Source: a virus. From it: a DNA stretch of 40,995 nt. The first letter of the stretch is position 1. Every line of letters starts with the position of its first letter. The notes under the pieces were generated by a model. The model was given only the letters and a program-made list of their open reading frames with translations. It made no database searches and was not told the origin of the DNA. Positions 9,977 to 40,995 of this stretch are shown here, piece by piece. Location: IMG/VR virus record IMGVR_UViG_3300046170_000095, positions 1-40,995 of that record; one strand, 5' to 3'. Made by a program: the position numbers and the translations under genes.

Positions 9977-10662
9977 GCTACTGTAAAATAGCCGCCAGTA
10001 TACCGAGTGTCTCCATATGTAGAATATCTGTAGAAATAAACTATAAGAGCCTTAGTACCAGACTGTGTAAAGTTAAAGCTTAACGACCGTGTTATAATAC
10101 TAGACGGAGGATTAGCAGTATTAGTGTACCTTGCCAAGTTTGGGTAGCCAGTACCTGATGTAAAATAGTCGTATTCTGCAATAACTACATCAAATCTAGT
10201 TCCCCTCCAAGTAAACCCTGTAACTGTAACCCCTTCTGGTATCTCTACTATTGCATAGGCTCTACTAAAGCCCAGATAAATACTTGCACCATAACCATTA
10301 TTCCAAGTATCCAACGTAGTCTTGTTGTTGGACATATTAGCTTGAAATAAATCATCGGTGTGGGCGAATTTAGATATTGGAACAGGTATTTTGCTAATAG
10401 CAGAACTTGTATCCACATAGTCCTTAACAGCAGCACTTGTAGGAATAGTGTCGTCGTTGTCGTTCAGGGCAATCTGGTCAGCCTCCGTTACAAGGGCTGA
10501 CCCTGCAAGGTTTGTTAAGTCAAGATTGTTAACGGCTGTATAAACACCTCCGCTAGTAACCATATTTTCGCTAATAGGTCGTGGTGAAGTATCAGCATTG
10601 TGTACCTTGCCAATGGCAGCATCAATGTCAAAACCTATGTTTGTTAAAGGGTATGTGCTCAT
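9973..10662 (-). CDS. tail fibre-like protein, shared N-terminus, copy B
   Basis: The first 84 residues of this 229-aa protein are nearly the same as those of the gene just upstream (S-P-R-P-I-S-x-N-M-V-T-S-G-G-V-Y-T-A-V), while the remaining 145 differ entirely. The S-G-G-V-Y-x-A repeat style is common in phage tail and fibre proteins. The C-terminal part is Ser, Thr, Tyr and Gly rich and predicted beta, as in receptor-binding tips. I infer that the shared part attaches to the virion or trimerises, while the variable part meets the host or a partner. It is the last gene of the virion operon. Function is inferred from layout, not from a named domain. Confidence 0.65.
   Translation of the reverse strand: MSTYPLTNIGFDIDAAIGKVHNADTSPRPISENMVTSGGVYTAVNNLDLTNLAGSALVTEADQIALNDNDDTIPTSAAVKDYVDTSSAISKIPVPISKFAHTDDLFQANMSNNKTTLDTWNNGYGASIYLGFSRAYAIVEIPEGVTVTGFTWRGTRFDVVIAEYDYFTSGTGYPNLARYTNTANPPSSIITRSLSFNFTQSGTKALIVYFYRYSTYGDTRYTGGYFTVA
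10411..10662 (-). repeat. duplicated 5' gene segment, copy B
   Basis: These 252 bases encode the shared 84-residue N-terminus and match 11010-11261 at the DNA level through long stretches, for example around the T-S-A-A-V-K-D-Y-V-D codons. The two copies lie 599 bases apart in direct orientation, so recombination between them would fuse or delete a tip domain. Confidence 0.85.
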
Positions 10663-10667
10663 AATCG

Positions 10668-11261
10668 TTAAGCTAGTTTTTTCAATCTAGCAAACTTAGT
10701 GTTGTCCATTGCATCTATTGTTATAGTATACGACTCGTTTTTAGCTATTGGAACCACCATATGCATATAGTCGCTGTAAGATGTACTAGTTTGTATGTTT
10801 GAATACTGAAAAAGTACTCCACCCACAGTAACACTTATTGACCCTACTGAATATGCAGTTCCAAAAGGTCGAAAAGAACCAGCACGACCCGATGCAATTA
10901 TAAAACCAGAGTCAGAAGCAGTGCCTGAAACTGTCTGAATACTCTCATATCGGTCTCCGTCATCTGAAAGTAAAGTAGTAAACCCTGCTTGCATAACAGA
11001 AGCATTGTCATCTACATAATCCTTAACAGCAGCACTTGTAGGAATGGTGTCGTCGTTGTCGTTCTGGGCAATCTGGTCGGACTCCGTTACAAGAGCTGAG
11101 CTTGCAATATTTGATAGGTCAAGATTGTTAACGGCTGTGTAAACACCACCGCTAGTGACCATGTTAGCGCTAATAGGTCGTGGTGAACTATCTGCATTGT
11201 GTACTTTGTTTAGTGCTGAGTCAATGTTAGCACCTACTAGTGATAGTGGATAGTCAGCCAT
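10668..11261 (-). CDS. tail fibre-like protein, shared N-terminus, copy A
   Basis: This 197-aa protein shares its N-terminal 84 residues with the following gene and has its own beta-rich C-terminus (about residues 85-197). The pair looks like duplicated fibre genes that have exchanged tips. It starts one base before the DUF6321-type gene ends. I see no enzymatic motif. The alternative is that these are two subunits of a decoration or base structure; the position at the far end of the virion operon, after the tail chaperone and lysis genes, favours late-added receptor-binding modules. Confidence 0.65.
   Translation of the reverse strand: MADYPLSLVGANIDSALNKVHNADSSPRPISANMVTSGGVYTAVNNLDLSNIASSALVTESDQIAQNDNDDTIPTSAAVKDYVDDNASVMQAGFTTLLSDDGDRYESIQTVSGTASDSGFIIASGRAGSFRPFGTAYSVGSISVTVGGVLFQYSNIQTSTSYSDYMHMVVPIAKNESYTITIDAMDNTKFARLKKLA
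11010..11261 (-). repeat. duplicated 5' gene segment, copy A
   Basis: This is the partner of 10411-10662: same reading frame, same 84-residue product, same orientation. DNA similarity ends close to the Y-V-D codons, where the two genes become unrelated, marking the module border. Confidence 0.85.
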
Positions 11262-35331: not shown

Positions 35332-35631
35332 ATGTCAATCGTACTCAATCAACCTAACACCACGTCAACAGCACGTGTTCTTATTACCGAAGCCAAAAAA
35401 GACCTCGGCGACGTAACGAAGCCGAAGGCTCTCACGAAGGTCATCACTCAAGACCGAATCTCTCTGGAGTTCTGGTCTGACACCAACGTACCGCTCGGCA
35501 AGTCGGGCGACGTCGTTGATGTCATCGTCACCACCGAGGGCAACCTCATCCCCGATAAGGAGACAGGTGAACCGAGTGACCGTTACTACTTCACGTTCGC
35601 TGTCGCACCGTCGGACTTCTTCACTAACTAA
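35332..35631 (+). CDS. hypothetical protein, 99 aa
   Basis: The protein is probably an all-beta domain: strands T-A-R-V-L-I-T-E, D-R-I-S-L-E-F-W-S, D-V-V-D-V-I-V-T-T-E-G and R-Y-Y-F-T-F-A-V, joined by turns with Gly and Asp. The five-strand pattern is like an OB or SH3 barrel and could bind nucleic acid, but no family signature is seen. The start has an A-rich leader. Its stop is 42 bases before the next gene, a gap filled by the repeated leader element. Confidence 0.7.
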   Translation: MSIVLNQPNTTSTARVLITEAKKDLGDVTKPKALTKVITQDRISLEFWSDTNVPLGKSGDVVDVIVTTEGNLIPDKETGEPSDRYYFTFAVAPSDFFTN

Positions 35632-35637
35632 TCTAAC

Positions 35638-35668
35638 CGTCCTGAGCATGACGTTAATCTGCTCCTTT
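35638..35668 (+). promoter_or_regulatory. repeated leader element, copy 1
   Basis: CCTGAGCATGACGTTAATC followed by TGCTCC recurs, with few changes, at 36707 and 37859, each time shortly before a gene. GAGCA and TGCTC can pair around an 11-base loop. The ATG inside opens a nine-codon frame (M-T-L-I-C-S-F-T-L) whose TGA overlaps the start codon of the following gene. It may be a translational leader or a protein-binding hairpin. Confidence 0.7.
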
Positions 35669-36691: not shown

Positions 36692-36706
36692 TAGTAGTAA
36701 TCCCCA

Positions 36707-36738
36707 CGTCCTGAGCATGACGTTAAACTGCTCCTTTT
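36707..36738 (+). promoter_or_regulatory. repeated leader element, copy 2
   Basis: This copy differs from copy 1 at one base within the core (T to A before CTGCTC) and keeps the GAGCA / TGCTC pairing. Here the inner ATG at 36717 is in frame with the following gene, giving a possible ten-residue N-terminal extension. Confidence 0.7.
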
Positions 36739-37482: not shown

Positions 37483-37513
37483 GCAGCCCATCTGTATCCC
37501 TCAGATGGGCTGC
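37483..37513. terminator. strong hairpin upstream of the ubiquitin-like gene
   Basis: A perfect 12-pair stem (GCAGCCCATCTG with CAGATGGGCTGC) has a seven-base loop. After it the + strand reads CCAATTTATG, a poor T-run; on the - strand it is followed by TTTTATATA, closer to a terminator. It lies in a 219-base gap (37408-37626) with no convincing gene, although a 17-codon basic frame opens at 37412. Confidence 0.6.
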
Positions 37514-37626: not shown

Positions 37627-37851
37627 ATGGCAACTGTAACTATCCGCTACGGTCTGACTAACTCAGTCACCCGTGACTTCGACGACGATGCTACTATCAA
37701 CGACTTGCTCGGTGATAGCGCAGTCCGTGCAGCCCTGTCTGCACCAGAGAACGTCCGTGCTGTAAGCAACGGTCAAACCCTTGACGGTCACAACTACGTG
37801 ACTGGCTACAGCTCCATCACCTTGGAGCAGCAAGCATCCAGCAAGGCTTAA
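37627..37851 (+). CDS. ubiquitin-like beta-grasp protein
   Basis: The 74-residue protein has the beta-grasp order: strand V-T-I-R-Y-G, strand S-V-T-R-D-F, helix T-I-N-D-L-L-G-D-S-A-V-R-A-A-L, strand N-V-R-A-V-S-N-G-Q-T-L, and final strand S-S-I-T-L-E-Q-Q. This is the size and shape of ThiS, of PRTRC protein C and of ubiquitin. Followed by E2-like, E1-like and JAMM genes, it is best read as the tag of a conjugation system. It ends S-S-K-A, with no di-glycine; either the tail is trimmed, or this group uses another C-terminus, or the tag is bound and not conjugated. The family call leans strongly on neighbours. Leader TATATC before ATG. Confidence 0.75.
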   Translation: MATVTIRYGLTNSVTRDFDDDATINDLLGDSAVRAALSAPENVRAVSNGQTLDGHNYVTGYSSITLEQQASSKA

Positions 37852-37858
37852 CACTAGT

Positions 37859-37889
37859 CCCTCCTGAGTACGAGATGAAACTGCTCACC
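37859..37889 (+). promoter_or_regulatory. repeated leader element, copy 3
   Basis: CCTGAG (37863-37868) and CTGCTC (37881-37886) keep the same 24-base span as in copies 1 and 2, although the bases between have changed. GAGCA became GAGTA, which can still pair with TGCTC through a G-U wobble. It stands 21 bases before the E2-like gene. Confidence 0.55.
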
Positions 37890-37909
37890 TCATTAAACTA
37901 TTTAATCTT

Positions 37910-38725
37910 ATGTCAAACACACCAGAAATTACAAGCCAAGAATACATCTTGGATGCAGACGGTAGGTTCCACCGTCGTACAACCATCACCACCCCAATCA
38001 TTAATGCAGACAAACTCCTGTCTGAGATTAAAGATGACGGTGTTCTCATTCTTCAACCGTACTATCAAACAGTATCAACTGACGGTGTAGATGACGGCTC
38101 AATAGTAGAACATCCTACACGTTTCCTGTCGTACAGCACCACACCTCACTTGGTCAATGTAGTAAGCAAGTTGGAGTACTTCCCATTCAAAGGCGCACAC
38201 CTTGAAGAATCCGATGAAACTGACACATACCGCATGTTCATCCCATCATCAGGAGGTGGCATCCCAGACCACGTAACAAGGCACGGTGCGTTGAAGTGGG
38301 AACCATACTACCTCGGCTTCGACATGTACACCTACGTTCAATACAACTTCGAGCAAAAGACTGCTGGCAGTATGTACATCTTCTTGGTCAGGGACAACAA
38401 AGCATACTTTCCTGACATACCCAACGTCTTTGAAGACGGTAGGCTCTGCGCTGGTAATGACTACGAAGCTAGATTCAACAAGCGGAGTATGGATTCCATG
38501 TTAGATTTGCACAGGCAAAACCACACACTCCTGTACAGATCACCATGCAACAACGACCTTCGTAACCTTAGCAACGAGAAACACTTCGTAATCTTTGACA
38601 GCACTGGTCAAACCAAAAGCCCACGTAGCGGGTTCTCTAGTAGCTCAGGATACAGCAGGTTCTTCAAACCCAGCACTAATATGTTTATTAATACGTTCGC
38701 AGAACGAGCACAATCAAACCTATGA
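37910..38725 (+). CDS. E2-like ubiquitin-conjugating protein (PRTRC-B type)
   Basis: The 271-aa protein contains Y-I-F-L-V-R-D-N-K-A-Y-F-P-D-I-P-N-V-F-E-D-G-R-L-C180-A-G-N. The run strand, then F/L-P-x-x-P-N-V-(F/Y)-x-D-G-x-x-C-x-G, is the core of bacterial E2-like folds known from PRTRC protein B, where the Cys is the candidate thioester residue. Cys180 would carry the tag from the E1-like partner. The first 150 residues are mainly beta and have an internal T-P-H-L-V-N-V-V-S-K helix; the last 60 are Ser-rich and flexible. The stop overlaps the 111-aa gene (ATGA). The fold is inferred from this motif and the neighbours; I put moderate weight on it. Confidence 0.68.
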   Translation: MSNTPEITSQEYILDADGRFHRRTTITTPIINADKLLSEIKDDGVLILQPYYQTVSTDGVDDGSIVEHPTRFLSYSTTPHLVNVVSKLEYFPFKGAHLEESDETDTYRMFIPSSGGGIPDHVTRHGALKWEPYYLGFDMYTYVQYNFEQKTAGSMYIFLVRDNKAYFPDIPNVFEDGRLCAGNDYEARFNKRSMDSMLDLHRQNHTLLYRSPCNNDLRNLSNEKHFVIFDSTGQTKSPRSGFSSSSGYSRFFKPSTNMFINTFAERAQSNL

Positions 38726-39057
38726 GTAACATACACAGCTATTTCGTAAACGCTGAAGCAGTGTATGGTCACATGCACACTGCTAGGAACATTCGTACTA
38801 TTCTTCAAGACTCTCCTCGACAACGTGCTCACATAACTGACGGTGTTGAGAATGAACAAGCACGCCTTGAAGACACCTACGAGATTCAACCTGACCTAAC
38901 TCCAGAGCAACTGCGTGTGCTCTTCAAGATTATCAACAAACAATTACCTGATTGTGGTCGTAAGCGTGGTGCAATCCTCCGTTACATCAGAGCTTACATG
39001 CCAGAACCCGAACCCAACTACGGTTCAAAAATCCTACAACGTCTTAAGAATCTATGA
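38722..39057 (+). CDS. unknown component of the ubiquitin-like module, 111 aa
   Basis: The protein is predicted mostly helical, with L-T-P-E-Q-L-R-V-L-F-K-I-I-N-K-Q-L-P and a basic R-K-R-G-A-I-L-R-Y-I-R-A-Y segment, a Pro/Glu linker, and a short last helix. It has a single Cys, so it is not a RING or HECT-like ligase. It overlaps both the E2-like and E1-like genes by four bases, so it is made with them and is probably a partner, adaptor or substrate. No known PRTRC or Bil component matches it by eye. Confidence 0.7.
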   Translation: MSNIHSYFVNAEAVYGHMHTARNIRTILQDSPRQRAHITDGVENEQARLEDTYEIQPDLTPEQLRVLFKIINKQLPDCGRKRGAILRYIRAYMPEPEPNYGSKILQRLKNL

Positions 39058-39779
39058 AACCAAACCTAAAAGCAGTAATCATCGGTGCAGGTGGCGTCAC
39101 AAGCTACATGCTACCCGCCCTCCGCAACAGCTTCGACTTGCACGCTACCCTCATTGACGGTGACGTGCTTGAGAAGAAGAACCTTGACCGTCAGTTGTTT
39201 CGCAACAACATGGTTGGTCAGCACAAGTGCGTTGCTCTCATGAAACAATACAACTTCCGCAAGGAAGAAGGTCAGGCTATCCGCTCATACTTTGACATGG
39301 AGATGCTAGACACCGAGTACAAGTACTGGTTCAACCAAGCAGACGTTATCATCTGCGCTGTTGACAACCACCCAGCTCGCCTTGCTGCTATCGAAGCAGC
39401 CAAGCAGACACGCACACCAATCGTAATCTGCGCTAACGAGTATCACACAAGCCAAGCGTACATCTACTGCCCTGTCTTTGCTGACGAGTTCGAGATTCCA
39501 ATGATGGACCCACTCAATCGTTACCCAGAGATTGCAACTGACAAGTCAGGCAGCCCAATGAGTTGTCAAGGTGAAGCCCTTGAGTCTGAACCACAGCTTG
39601 CCATTGCCAATCAAGTAGCAGCATCCTTTGCTAACTACCTGCTTTGGACTTGGTTCGGTATGCCACGTCAAGCAGAAGATGCTGTCAAGTATATGCCTGT
39701 TGAATTCCAATCTACATTCTCACGAATGCAAACCCTAACCATCGAAGACATTGAAAAACTGTACAAACAATCAGCCTAG
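39054..39779 (+). CDS. ThiF/E1-like adenylyltransferase
   Basis: The 241-aa protein is an E1-type enzyme. It has the nucleotide loop I-I-G11-A-G-G14-V-T, then L-I-D35-G-D37-V-L-E-K-K-N43-L-D-R46-Q-L-F, then C-A-V-D104-N-H-P-A-R. These Asp, Asn and Arg bind ATP and Mg and activate the C-terminus of a ubiquitin-like protein. M-S-C171-Q-G is a candidate thioester Cys, as in the P-S-C-A of PRTRC ThiF. No CxxC zinc pair is seen. It is short compared with MoeB/ThiF but complete in the catalytic part. It overlaps the 111-aa gene before it (ATGA) and the JAMM frame after it. Confidence 0.9.
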   Translation: MKPNLKAVIIGAGGVTSYMLPALRNSFDLHATLIDGDVLEKKNLDRQLFRNNMVGQHKCVALMKQYNFRKEEGQAIRSYFDMEMLDTEYKYWFNQADVIICAVDNHPARLAAIEAAKQTRTPIVICANEYHTSQAYIYCPVFADEFEIPMMDPLNRYPEIATDKSGSPMSCQGEALESEPQLAIANQVAASFANYLLWTWFGMPRQAEDAVKYMPVEFQSTFSRMQTLTIEDIEKLYKQSA

Positions 39780-40971
39780 CCAAGTATATCACGACGGCTT
39801 CGTGTACGAAGAGGACATCAACGACCTCTTCGTTACATACCGACAAGTCGCTGAGCTACCCGAACAAAAGGACTTATCTCCTGAGTGGCTGGGTAAGCCC
39901 ATCCCACTTGACATGTGGAAAGAAATCCTTGCGTTCATGAAGCAGTCACAAGACAAGTTCAAGTCAGAAGCACTTGCCTTCTTGTACTACGACGTAAGCA
40001 ACGACGACAACCCTTGGTCTTACTGGGTTCCGCCACAGGAAACAGCAGGCATGACTGTCAAGTCCTTGCCTGATGACTCACTCTGGCGTGAGCAACGCAG
40101 CAAGTATCCAGACACACAGTTCGGTACAGTGCACCACCACTGCACAAGCTCAGCCTTCCAGTCTGGTACTGACGAAGCTGACGAGGTCAACCGTGAGGGT
40201 CTGCACTTTACCATCGGTAAGCTCAACGACGTTGACAACCTTGACGTTCACTTCCGACTATCAATCGGTGGTCACTGCGTAGAGATGGACGCTGGCACGT
40301 ACATCGAGCAAGCTGAGTCACCATTCAAAGCAACCTGCCGTGTCACTGACAGTGTACAAGACCAAGTACGCAACCACCTGCACAAGATAGACATTGCTAC
40401 CTTGCCTGACAAATGGGAAGACATGGACTTCACAGTACAGATGGACAACGTGCACAAGAAAACATACTCCGTTACATCATACTCAGGTTACAGTAAGCAT
40501 AAGACTATGCACCAAGGCACACTTGGTTATGCCTACGGCTATGACCCAGACGATAAGTACTTTAAAAAAAACACAAACGAAGCAGAAGACATGGCTCCCA
40601 TAGAGCAGCTAAGTCCAAGCGAAAATCTCGCTGAAGATTTTATCACAGCAATTATGACTGACTATAGATATGAAGAAATCCTTGAACAATATTATATCCA
40701 CACGAACAACAGTATTGATAAGACTGCGTTACTTACAGGCACTCTTGTTGATACGCAAATCTGCAACGACTTGTGTAACATGTTTAGAGATAACGAGTTT
40801 ATGTATACTGCTGAGTATAAGAATGTTGAAACAACGGTTGATGAGTTTCTTAAAGAATCTTCGCAGTTTGGTCTTGCCTACACGCAGAAAGACCTTATCA
40901 ATGGACTCCAATCGCTTAACAATGCAGAAGGAATCGGAGTTGAATACATGGATAAGGAGAATGTTCTATGA
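39751..40971 (+). CDS. JAMM/MPN metallopeptidase (deubiquitinase-like)
   Basis: The frame holds an exact JAMM site: E73 in K-S-E-A-L-A-F-L-Y-Y-D, then H128-H-H130, seven residues, S138-G-T-D141. HxHx7SxxD plus an upstream Glu coordinates the catalytic zinc in deubiquitinases and in PRTRC protein A. W-V-P-P-Q before the motif also fits. The enzyme would remove or mature the tag. The 250 residues after the domain match nothing I know. There is no good ATG: a TTG at 39751, a GTG at 39802 or an internal ATG at 39913 are possible, or a +1 frameshift from the ThiF gene could fuse the two. The stop overlaps the next gene (ATGA). Confidence 0.88.
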   Translation: MKNCTNNQPSQVYHDGFVYEEDINDLFVTYRQVAELPEQKDLSPEWLGKPIPLDMWKEILAFMKQSQDKFKSEALAFLYYDVSNDDNPWSYWVPPQETAGMTVKSLPDDSLWREQRSKYPDTQFGTVHHHCTSSAFQSGTDEADEVNREGLHFTIGKLNDVDNLDVHFRLSIGGHCVEMDAGTYIEQAESPFKATCRVTDSVQDQVRNHLHKIDIATLPDKWEDMDFTVQMDNVHKKTYSVTSYSGYSKHKTMHQGTLGYAYGYDPDDKYFKKNTNEAEDMAPIEQLSPSENLAEDFITAIMTDYRYEEILEQYYIHTNNSIDKTALLTGTLVDTQICNDLCNMFRDNEFMYTAEYKNVETTVDEFLKESSQFGLAYTQKDLINGLQSLNNAEGIGVEYMDKENVL

Positions 40972-40995
40972 GCAATCTAATCATAAAGTTTGTGT
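40968..40995 (+). CDS. start of a further gene in the module, cut by window end
   Basis: ATG at 40968 overlaps the JAMM stop as ATGA and opens M-S-N-L-I-I-K-F-V before the window ends. The overlap suggests that the operon continues, so the module may have another component outside the window. Confidence 0.6.

Follow-up and report, generated by a model that had tools for sequence, protein, structure and literature searches.

Five consecutive genes on the plus strand of IMG/VR virus record IMGVR_UViG_3300046170_000095 encode a predicted ubiquitin-like (Ubl) tag, an E2-like protein, a helical protein of 111 amino acids (aa) that we call X111, an E1/ThiF-like adenylyltransferase and a JAMM peptidase, in that order. 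We refer to the whole viral record of 40,995 bases as the window, and all positions are given in its numbering (Table 1). The E2-like gene overlaps the X111 gene by 4 nucleotides (nt; ATGA), and the X111 gene overlaps the E1 gene in the same way; the E1 and JAMM genes overlap by 29 nt if the TTG start of the latter, which has no in-frame ATG near its N-terminus, is used. The tag gene stands apart, 58 nt upstream of the E2-like gene. A preliminary description of this DNA had reported five open reading frames (ORFs) in a row with the last four overlapping, and this arrangement is present, the final overlap depending on the TTG start.

Table 1. Coordinates of the five module genes and the adjoining flank in the window
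Feature	Length	Positions	Strand	Remarks
Ubiquitin-like tag (predicted)	74 aa	37627..37851	+	C-terminus ...ITLEQQASSKA; profile matches beta-grasp
E2-like protein	271 aa	37910..38725	+	Putative catalytic Cys180 (38447-38449) in PNVFEDGRLCAG; second motif SPCNNDLR, residues 211-218
X111	111 aa	38722..39057	+	All-helical (AlphaFold2, AF2); motif GRKRGA(I/V)(L/M)RYI; 29 homologs aligned
E1/ThiF-like adenylyltransferase	241 aa	39054..39779	+	GAGG 11-14; NLDRQ 43-47; D104; putative thioester Cys171 (39564-39566)
JAMM/JAB metallopeptidase	406 aa from TTG	39751..40971	+	N-terminal JAB-N-like region; variable C-terminal part of ~200 aa; residues numbered from 39778: E64 (39967-39969), H119/H121 (40132-40140), S129, D132 (40171-40173)
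VRR-NUC nuclease gene, start region		40969..40995	+	Continues at window position 1; flank, not a module member

The E1 matches the Pfam family ThiF at 4.7e-15. Its best NCBIfam match is PRTRC_ThiF (TIGR03736; 8e-14), with a score of 51.5 bits that falls below the family cut-off of 144.75, and hhalign pairs it with PRTRC ThiF at 99.5% (2e-23). By these comparisons the E1 is homologous to PRTRC ThiF and lies outside the family as defined. Cys171 aligns with the cysteine of PRTRC E1s and of most MoeB/ThiF-type E1s, and together with the nucleotide-binding motifs it is invariant in 38 of 38 relatives. Matches in the PDB include ThiF, MoeB and MccB, with weak ones to Cap2 and BubCD structures; the E1 is also weakly similar to E1-E2 defense models. 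In phylogenetic trees the E1s of the window clade form one group (support 96/90 and 100/98), and this clade, with the PRTRC and large-phage E1s, is split from the cellular MoeB/ThiF-type E1s at 100/100. The E1 tree was made without Bil and Cap2 E1s, and its long branches leave the order among the phage and PRTRC groups uncertain.

The peptidase carries the motif E...HxH-x7-S-x2-D in canonical spacing, invariant in 38 relatives and in L042, a viral contig described below. NCBIfam matches it to PRTRC_A (TIGR03735) at 2e-4, with 20.9 bits against a cut-off of 101.8, and hhalign gives 96.1% (3e-9) with PRTRC A, to which it is, on these profile scores, demonstrably related. The preliminary description had called the motifs of both enzymes complete and the context of the E2-like cysteine as expected. 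All three statements hold: the E1 sequence contains GxGGxxS, DGD, NLxRQ, the lysine, the aspartate and a putative thioester cysteine, the JAMM motif has every residue and the E2-like cysteine lies in PNVFxxGxxCxG.

For the E2-like protein, six residues are invariant among 26 members (N172, G177, C180, G182, N214 and L217). Compared by hhalign with the PRTRC proteins, the family matches PRTRC B (TIGR03737) and no other, at 43.6% (E=2e-4) over the cysteine region; adding two more phage E2s raises this to 57%, with cysteine aligned to cysteine. An NCBIfam search with the 26 members gave no match to PRTRC B, and Pfam Prok-E2_D is weakly matched by 7 of them. PRTRC B was also sought in one bacterial class (385 genomes), where neither it nor the controls gave a match, so that this search is uninformative. 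A link to known E2s comes from cultured phages: the E2s of Vibrio phage D69 and Salmonella phage Arash match the window family at 93.9% in hhalign, and Prok-E2_D is matched by D69 (4e-4), by Bacillus phage KLEB27-3 (3e-4) and, at 0.02, by Arash. In the AF2 model (predicted local distance difference test, pLDDT, 86.4), a strand, PxN, the cysteine, a helix, an S-P-C-N-N-D-L loop and a second helix follow one another in the order found in ubiquitin-conjugating (UBC) proteins. When this model was compared with viral models in Foldseek, the one match was an uncharacterized phage protein, A0A6J5NI06 (2e-7), which does not bear an E2 name.

Profile matches of the tag in the PDB are individually weak, and four of the five are beta-grasp proteins (redesigned ubiquitin at E=0.0076, Hydra-1ubq, SAMP2 and PF1061). 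The Pfam matches of tag family members, again weak, all fall in beta-grasp families (ThiS, TGS, Ub-Mut7C and SAMP2), and the tandem tag of L042 matches ThiS at 4e-4. This tandem tag (L042:6254-6697) consists of two Ubl domains, each ending in AQEKA. In the window lineage the tag has no di-glycine and ends in EQQASSKA, of which ASSKA is invariant in 29 of 29 relatives, the terminal residue being alanine. From its profile matches and its ending, we classify the 74-aa protein as a predicted beta-grasp ubiquitin-like tag with a conserved small C-terminal residue.

X111 is all-helical in its AF2 model (pLDDT 78; predicted template modeling score 0.46). Foldseek found no match for it, and comparisons with the PDB, Pfam and the PRTRC proteins gave no convincing relative, so that its description as new stands for the libraries searched. 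We considered a BEN domain and set it aside: it was matched by 2 of the 29 members (best 4.5e-4), the other Pfam matches were assorted singletons, and after 29 tries such a match is unproven. In the profile scan of viral contigs, every X111 was accompanied by the E1 of the module. Its position, this strict co-occurrence and the fast divergence that it shares with the E2-like protein suggest that X111 is probably an adaptor or substrate selector.

The module recurs in related phages. Scans of viral contigs detected the E1 profile in 38, the tag profile in 49 and the X111 profile in 51 contigs, as overlapping sets; where a member is missing, the contig ends at that side of the locus, with the sole exception of L042. 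That contig is viral, GC-rich and 71.8 kb long; where other loci have X111 it encodes a protein of 116 aa, and its E1 and JAMM genes are separated by the gene of a 411-aa protein. As a marker of kinship independent of the module, we used DNA polymerase identity and looked for the module upstream of the polymerase gene. Where polymerase identity is at least 65% and at least 1.9 kb of upstream sequence is available, the module is present in 26 of 26 loci. Three further loci in this identity range have shorter upstream sequence and hold part of the module, and the 13 without it have <1.9 kb; L190 (polymerase 73%) and L208 (66%), in which ~1.8 kb of upstream sequence holds other small genes and no module, are not counted as absences. 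At 50% polymerase identity, L212 has a diverged module including a probable diverged X111 (a weak match, 0.013). At 43% identity or less, the module is upstream of the polymerase in 0 of 21 loci, the search being limited to that region. Thus the doubt raised at the outset, that relatives might consistently be without these genes, does not apply: by the polymerase marker the module is clade-wide.

Mean pairwise identity among the relatives is 69% for E1, 60% for the tag, 49% for JAMM, 37% for X111 and 33% for the E2-like protein. Because the same five genes recur in the same order and on the same strand despite the low values for E2 and X111, the arrangement is beyond chance. These two are the fastest-evolving members, as expected of parts that face a target, and the catalytic residues of the E1, E2-like and JAMM proteins are invariant throughout. 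One related locus (L043) is binned in a Sneathiella metagenome-assembled genome; we rejected it as host evidence, since phage genes surround the module and the contig is taken to be a phage contig.

The preliminary description knew only bacterial counterparts, and here it was incomplete, as divergent versions exist in sequenced phage isolates. E2-like, JAMM and E1 genes stand next to one another in Salmonella phage Arash and in Vibrio phages D69, D181 and D148 (for D181 and D148, the modules are known by E1 and E2 matches only), and hhalign relates the D69/Arash proteins to those of the window at 99.3% for E1 and 96.9% for JAMM. Upstream in D69 (OZ195729.1, L045:1355-2143) lies a 263-aa tag polyprotein of three PRTRC C-like or Ubl-like repeats, each ending in GTKG, with an acidic linker between repeats 2 and 3; hhalign finds no relation between it and the window tag. 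In Bacillus phage vB_BauM_KLEB27-3, gp199 (OM634661.1, L157:718-1422) comprises four near-identical tandem Ubl copies of 57 aa, each ending in AGVKG, and a short extra tail, MPRIVVK, after the fourth. It exceeds the PRTRC_C cut-off (61 versus 45.95 bits) and matches Prok_Ub at 5e-27, and E2-like, JAMM and E1 genes follow it. No tag was found in Arash; gp251c was examined as a candidate and rejected for want of any resemblance. The E1- and E2-like proteins of Arash (L046), gp246c and gp248c, carry the annotation ‘structural protein’.

Partial modules occur in a fecal phage contig and in Acinetobacter phage ME3, in which genes are annotated as PRTRC A and ThiF; as such annotations in cultured phages show, phage copies are already in the databases as single annotated genes. 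The D69, Arash and KLEB27-3 modules resemble that of the window in their adjoining E2-like, JAMM and E1 genes. They differ in that the genomes are ~180-235 kb and that the tag, where found, has three (D69) or four (KLEB27-3) copies ending in GTKG or GVKG; X111 is not recognized in these cultured-phage modules. The tag tails, K-A in the window lineage and K/R-G elsewhere, suggest a shared end.

Among known systems, the plasmid-borne PRTRC cassette (named as ParB-related and ThiF-related; proteins A, B, C, E, F, ThiF and ParB) likewise combines a JAMM protein (A), an E2-like protein (B), a Ubl (C) and a ThiF-type E1 in one operon. By hhalign, the homology to the window module is clear for E1 and JAMM and weak for E2. 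The gene orders differ (tag-E2-X111-E1-JAMM in the window, E-C-F-B-A-ThiF in PRTRC), X111 is extra, the tag ends in alanine and is not detectably PRTRC C, and the NCBIfam matches are all below cut-offs. No member of the module matches PRTRC E or F in hhalign, no ParB lies beside it and its neighbors in relatives are phage genes. With no ParB, E or F and with a tag whose sequence is not that of PRTRC C, the module is not a PRTRC system.

Bub is a bacterial gene set of Ubl, E1, E2 and JAMM. The same components make up BilABCD (PMC11354881). Both are bacterial defense systems, and BilA is a double Ubl; the window module is likened to Bil by gene set only, and to BubCD through a weak E1 match. A closer match in composition is operon type 6d of Iyer, Burroughs and Aravind 2006 (PMC1779556), which contains a Ubl, a JAB protein with JAB-N, an E1, an E2 and a rapidly diverging alpha-helical protein. 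The five kinds of component are the same, down to a fast-diverging all-helical protein with conserved charged residues, to which X111 is likened by composition and not by homology. The 6d tag has a conserved C-terminal glycine where the window tag has alanine, and the 6d E2 has a conserved downstream histidine where the window protein has S-P-(C/F)-N-x-D-L. CBASS (cyclic oligonucleotide-based antiphage signaling system) Cap2/Cap3 has E1/E2/JAMM logic in common with the window; unlike CBASS, the window encodes E1 and E2 as separate proteins and a beta-grasp protein as the tag, and it has no CD-NTase or effector. Library searches recognized no nucleotidyltransferase, a mark of type II CBASS, among the five proteins. 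Finally, TAPI and TAPK of lambda/T1 tail assembly pair a phage Ubl with a JAB peptidase (PMC1779556), but these are tail assembly genes without E1 or E2.

In the surrounding genome, the module is followed by a cluster comprising VRR-NUC, a small ORF and the lysozyme-like and DNA polymerase genes, and the order from JAMM through to the polymerase is also found in relatives. The structural genes (head-tail adaptor, capsid, tail protein and terminase) are on the opposite strand. The VRR-NUC frame crosses the end-to-start join of the record without a stop; the record is thus circularly permuted and its map circular, which places the module away from any genome end. An edge artifact is rejected on this ground and because relatives carry the module internally. 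Distant relatives of the portal and polymerase occur in Pelagibacter phages and in an environmental podovirus genome, MW202510.1, which back the earlier assignment to podoviruses and point to a probably marine origin. The view of the module as a tag, E2, E1 and JAMM set in a podovirus, with PRTRC-like enzymes, is likewise supported. In MW202510.1 the module is absent among the annotated genes, and an E1 search there had no match; directly upstream of its polymerase (L166:8317-10614), in what is the module's region in the window lineage, are genes for a dCMP deaminase, a thymidylate kinase and a pyrimidine hydroxymethylase.

Several repeats were also noted. Upstream of the tag gene, a 12-bp perfect inverted repeat (37483-37513) can be read from the sequence as GCAGCCCATCTG, a 7-nt loop and CAGATGGGCTGC, with no T-run after it. 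A 40-nt direct repeat, 88% alike, precedes small ORFs at 35629-35668 and 36698-36737, and the stretch CCTGAGTACGAGATGAAACTGCTCACC at ~37863-37890, before the E2-like gene, resembles it; the repeat and this stretch are possibly a shared promoter or regulatory element. Elsewhere, a 243-nt direct repeat (84% identical; 10395-10637 and 10994-11236) lies on adjoining minus-strand ORFs and may be a gene duplication.

In biochemical terms, we consider it likely that the five genes form a self-contained, phage-owned cycle of ubiquitin-like conjugation and deconjugation, a reading supported by the one-to-one pairing of E1, JAMM and E2 with their PRTRC equivalents, without matches to other PRTRC proteins. 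In such a cycle, E1 would adenylate the C-terminal alanine of the 74-aa tag and then form a thioester through Cys171. The tag would pass to Cys180 of the E2, which, with X111 probably serving as its adaptor or choosing the substrates, would join it to amino groups of target proteins, and JAMM would remove it from them. In relatives with two to four tandem tag copies, JAMM may also mature the precursor; the tail motif at the end of each repeat (twice in L042, three times in D69, four times in KLEB27-3) suggests processing as for polyubiquitin. Because the module adjoins replication genes, it would probably act before or during phage DNA replication.

Several results weigh against the cycle. The tag lacks a C-terminal glycine and is unlike PRTRC C (TIGR03738; no NCBIfam match, 0.6% in hhalign); the E2-like model gave no UBC/E2 fold against the PDB in Foldseek; the E2-like profile found nothing in the PDB, nor did a profile of the E2 core to which the D69 and Arash sequences had been added; L042 has no recognizable X111; and there is no known E3 or target. 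The terminal alanine is no objection to conjugation, since the protein conjugated in CBASS ends in glycine or alanine and a change from glycine to alanine lowers conjugation without abolishing it (PMC10097602). As for the folds foreseen in the preliminary description, that of the tag is suggested by its profile matches, nearly all of them beta-grasp, and that of the E2-like protein was not recovered by Foldseek from the model with a pLDDT of 86; the E2 identity therefore rests on motif and profile evidence. The 271-aa protein might instead be a phage protein of other descent, with a PNVFxxGxxC motif that has come to look like an E2 active site by convergence, as the missing UBC match in the PDB, by sequence or Foldseek, and hhalign values of just 44-57% to PRTRC B would allow. 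However, its gene is always encoded between tag and E1, PRTRC B is the sole PRTRC protein that it matches, cysteine on cysteine, and the phage E2s that match Prok-E2_D tie it to known E2s, so we regard convergence as very unlikely. Small-molecule synthesis or sulfur transfer, with a ThiS/MoaD-like carrier, ThiF-like activation and JAMM as a processing protease, would suit the ThiS/ThiF-type relatives of tag and E1 and the ThiF, MoeB and MccB matches in the PDB. It is highly improbable in our view: no rhodanese, cysteine desulfurase or thiamine/molybdopterin gene is recognized beside the module, the GG of sulfur carriers is absent from the tag, the module always includes an E2-like protein whose cysteine is invariant, and the tree separates the E1 from its cellular MoeB/ThiF-type relatives.

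If the conjugation cycle is accepted, its purpose is a separate question, and no single answer comes near to even odds. Use by the phage itself, in replication or host takeover, is the least improbable of those named here. Counter-defense, in which the module interferes with host Bil, Bub or CBASS Cap2/Cap3 through JAMM deconjugation or a decoy tag, is compatible with the same biochemistry. Phages are subject to host systems of this type (PMC10097602), E2 and X111 diverge fast and the E1 has its weak similarities to defense proteins; yet a deconjugase or decoy would not require a complete, clade-conserved tag, E1 and E2, and the nearest E1 family is PRTRC ThiF rather than a defense family (in a tree without Bil and Cap2 E1s), which makes this purpose unlikely. 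We think it somewhat less likely still that the module serves the virion, by tagging a phage structural protein or by placing E1/E2 in the particle for assembly or for takeover on entry. Besides the annotation of the Arash E1 and E2 relatives, the basis of which is not known, this idea can draw on the Arash module lying at one end of its record with the terminase gene at the other, but in the window clade the module belongs to the replication cluster and is encoded on the other strand from the structural genes.

What is known here is the kind of system, with its PRTRC-related enzymes and 6d-like composition; what is new, as judged from sequence, is a phage lineage variant with an alanine-ended tag and X111. 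The open-access literature holds no description of a phage-owned PRTRC-like or ubiquitin-like tag-E1-E2-JAMM module; most subscription papers and preprints were outside the search, and priority is uncertain. A bolder proposal, that several distant tailed-phage lineages own complete Ubl systems, including JAMM-matured precursors in the style of polyubiquitin, and that X111 is a new E3-like adaptor directing tagging during replication, is conceivable and, to us, doubtful as a whole. Ubiquitin-like conjugation in bacteria is at present studied mostly as anti-phage defense. With a complete set for both conjugation and deconjugation fixed in a phage lineage, the roles are reversed: a bacterial virus may be marking proteins for purposes of its own. 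The question can be put to direct test in the laboratory on the related modules of cultured Vibrio, Salmonella and Bacillus phages, one of which has a polyubiquitin-like tag gene of four copies, and phage modules may help to explain the function of the long-known, uncharacterized PRTRC cassettes of plasmids.

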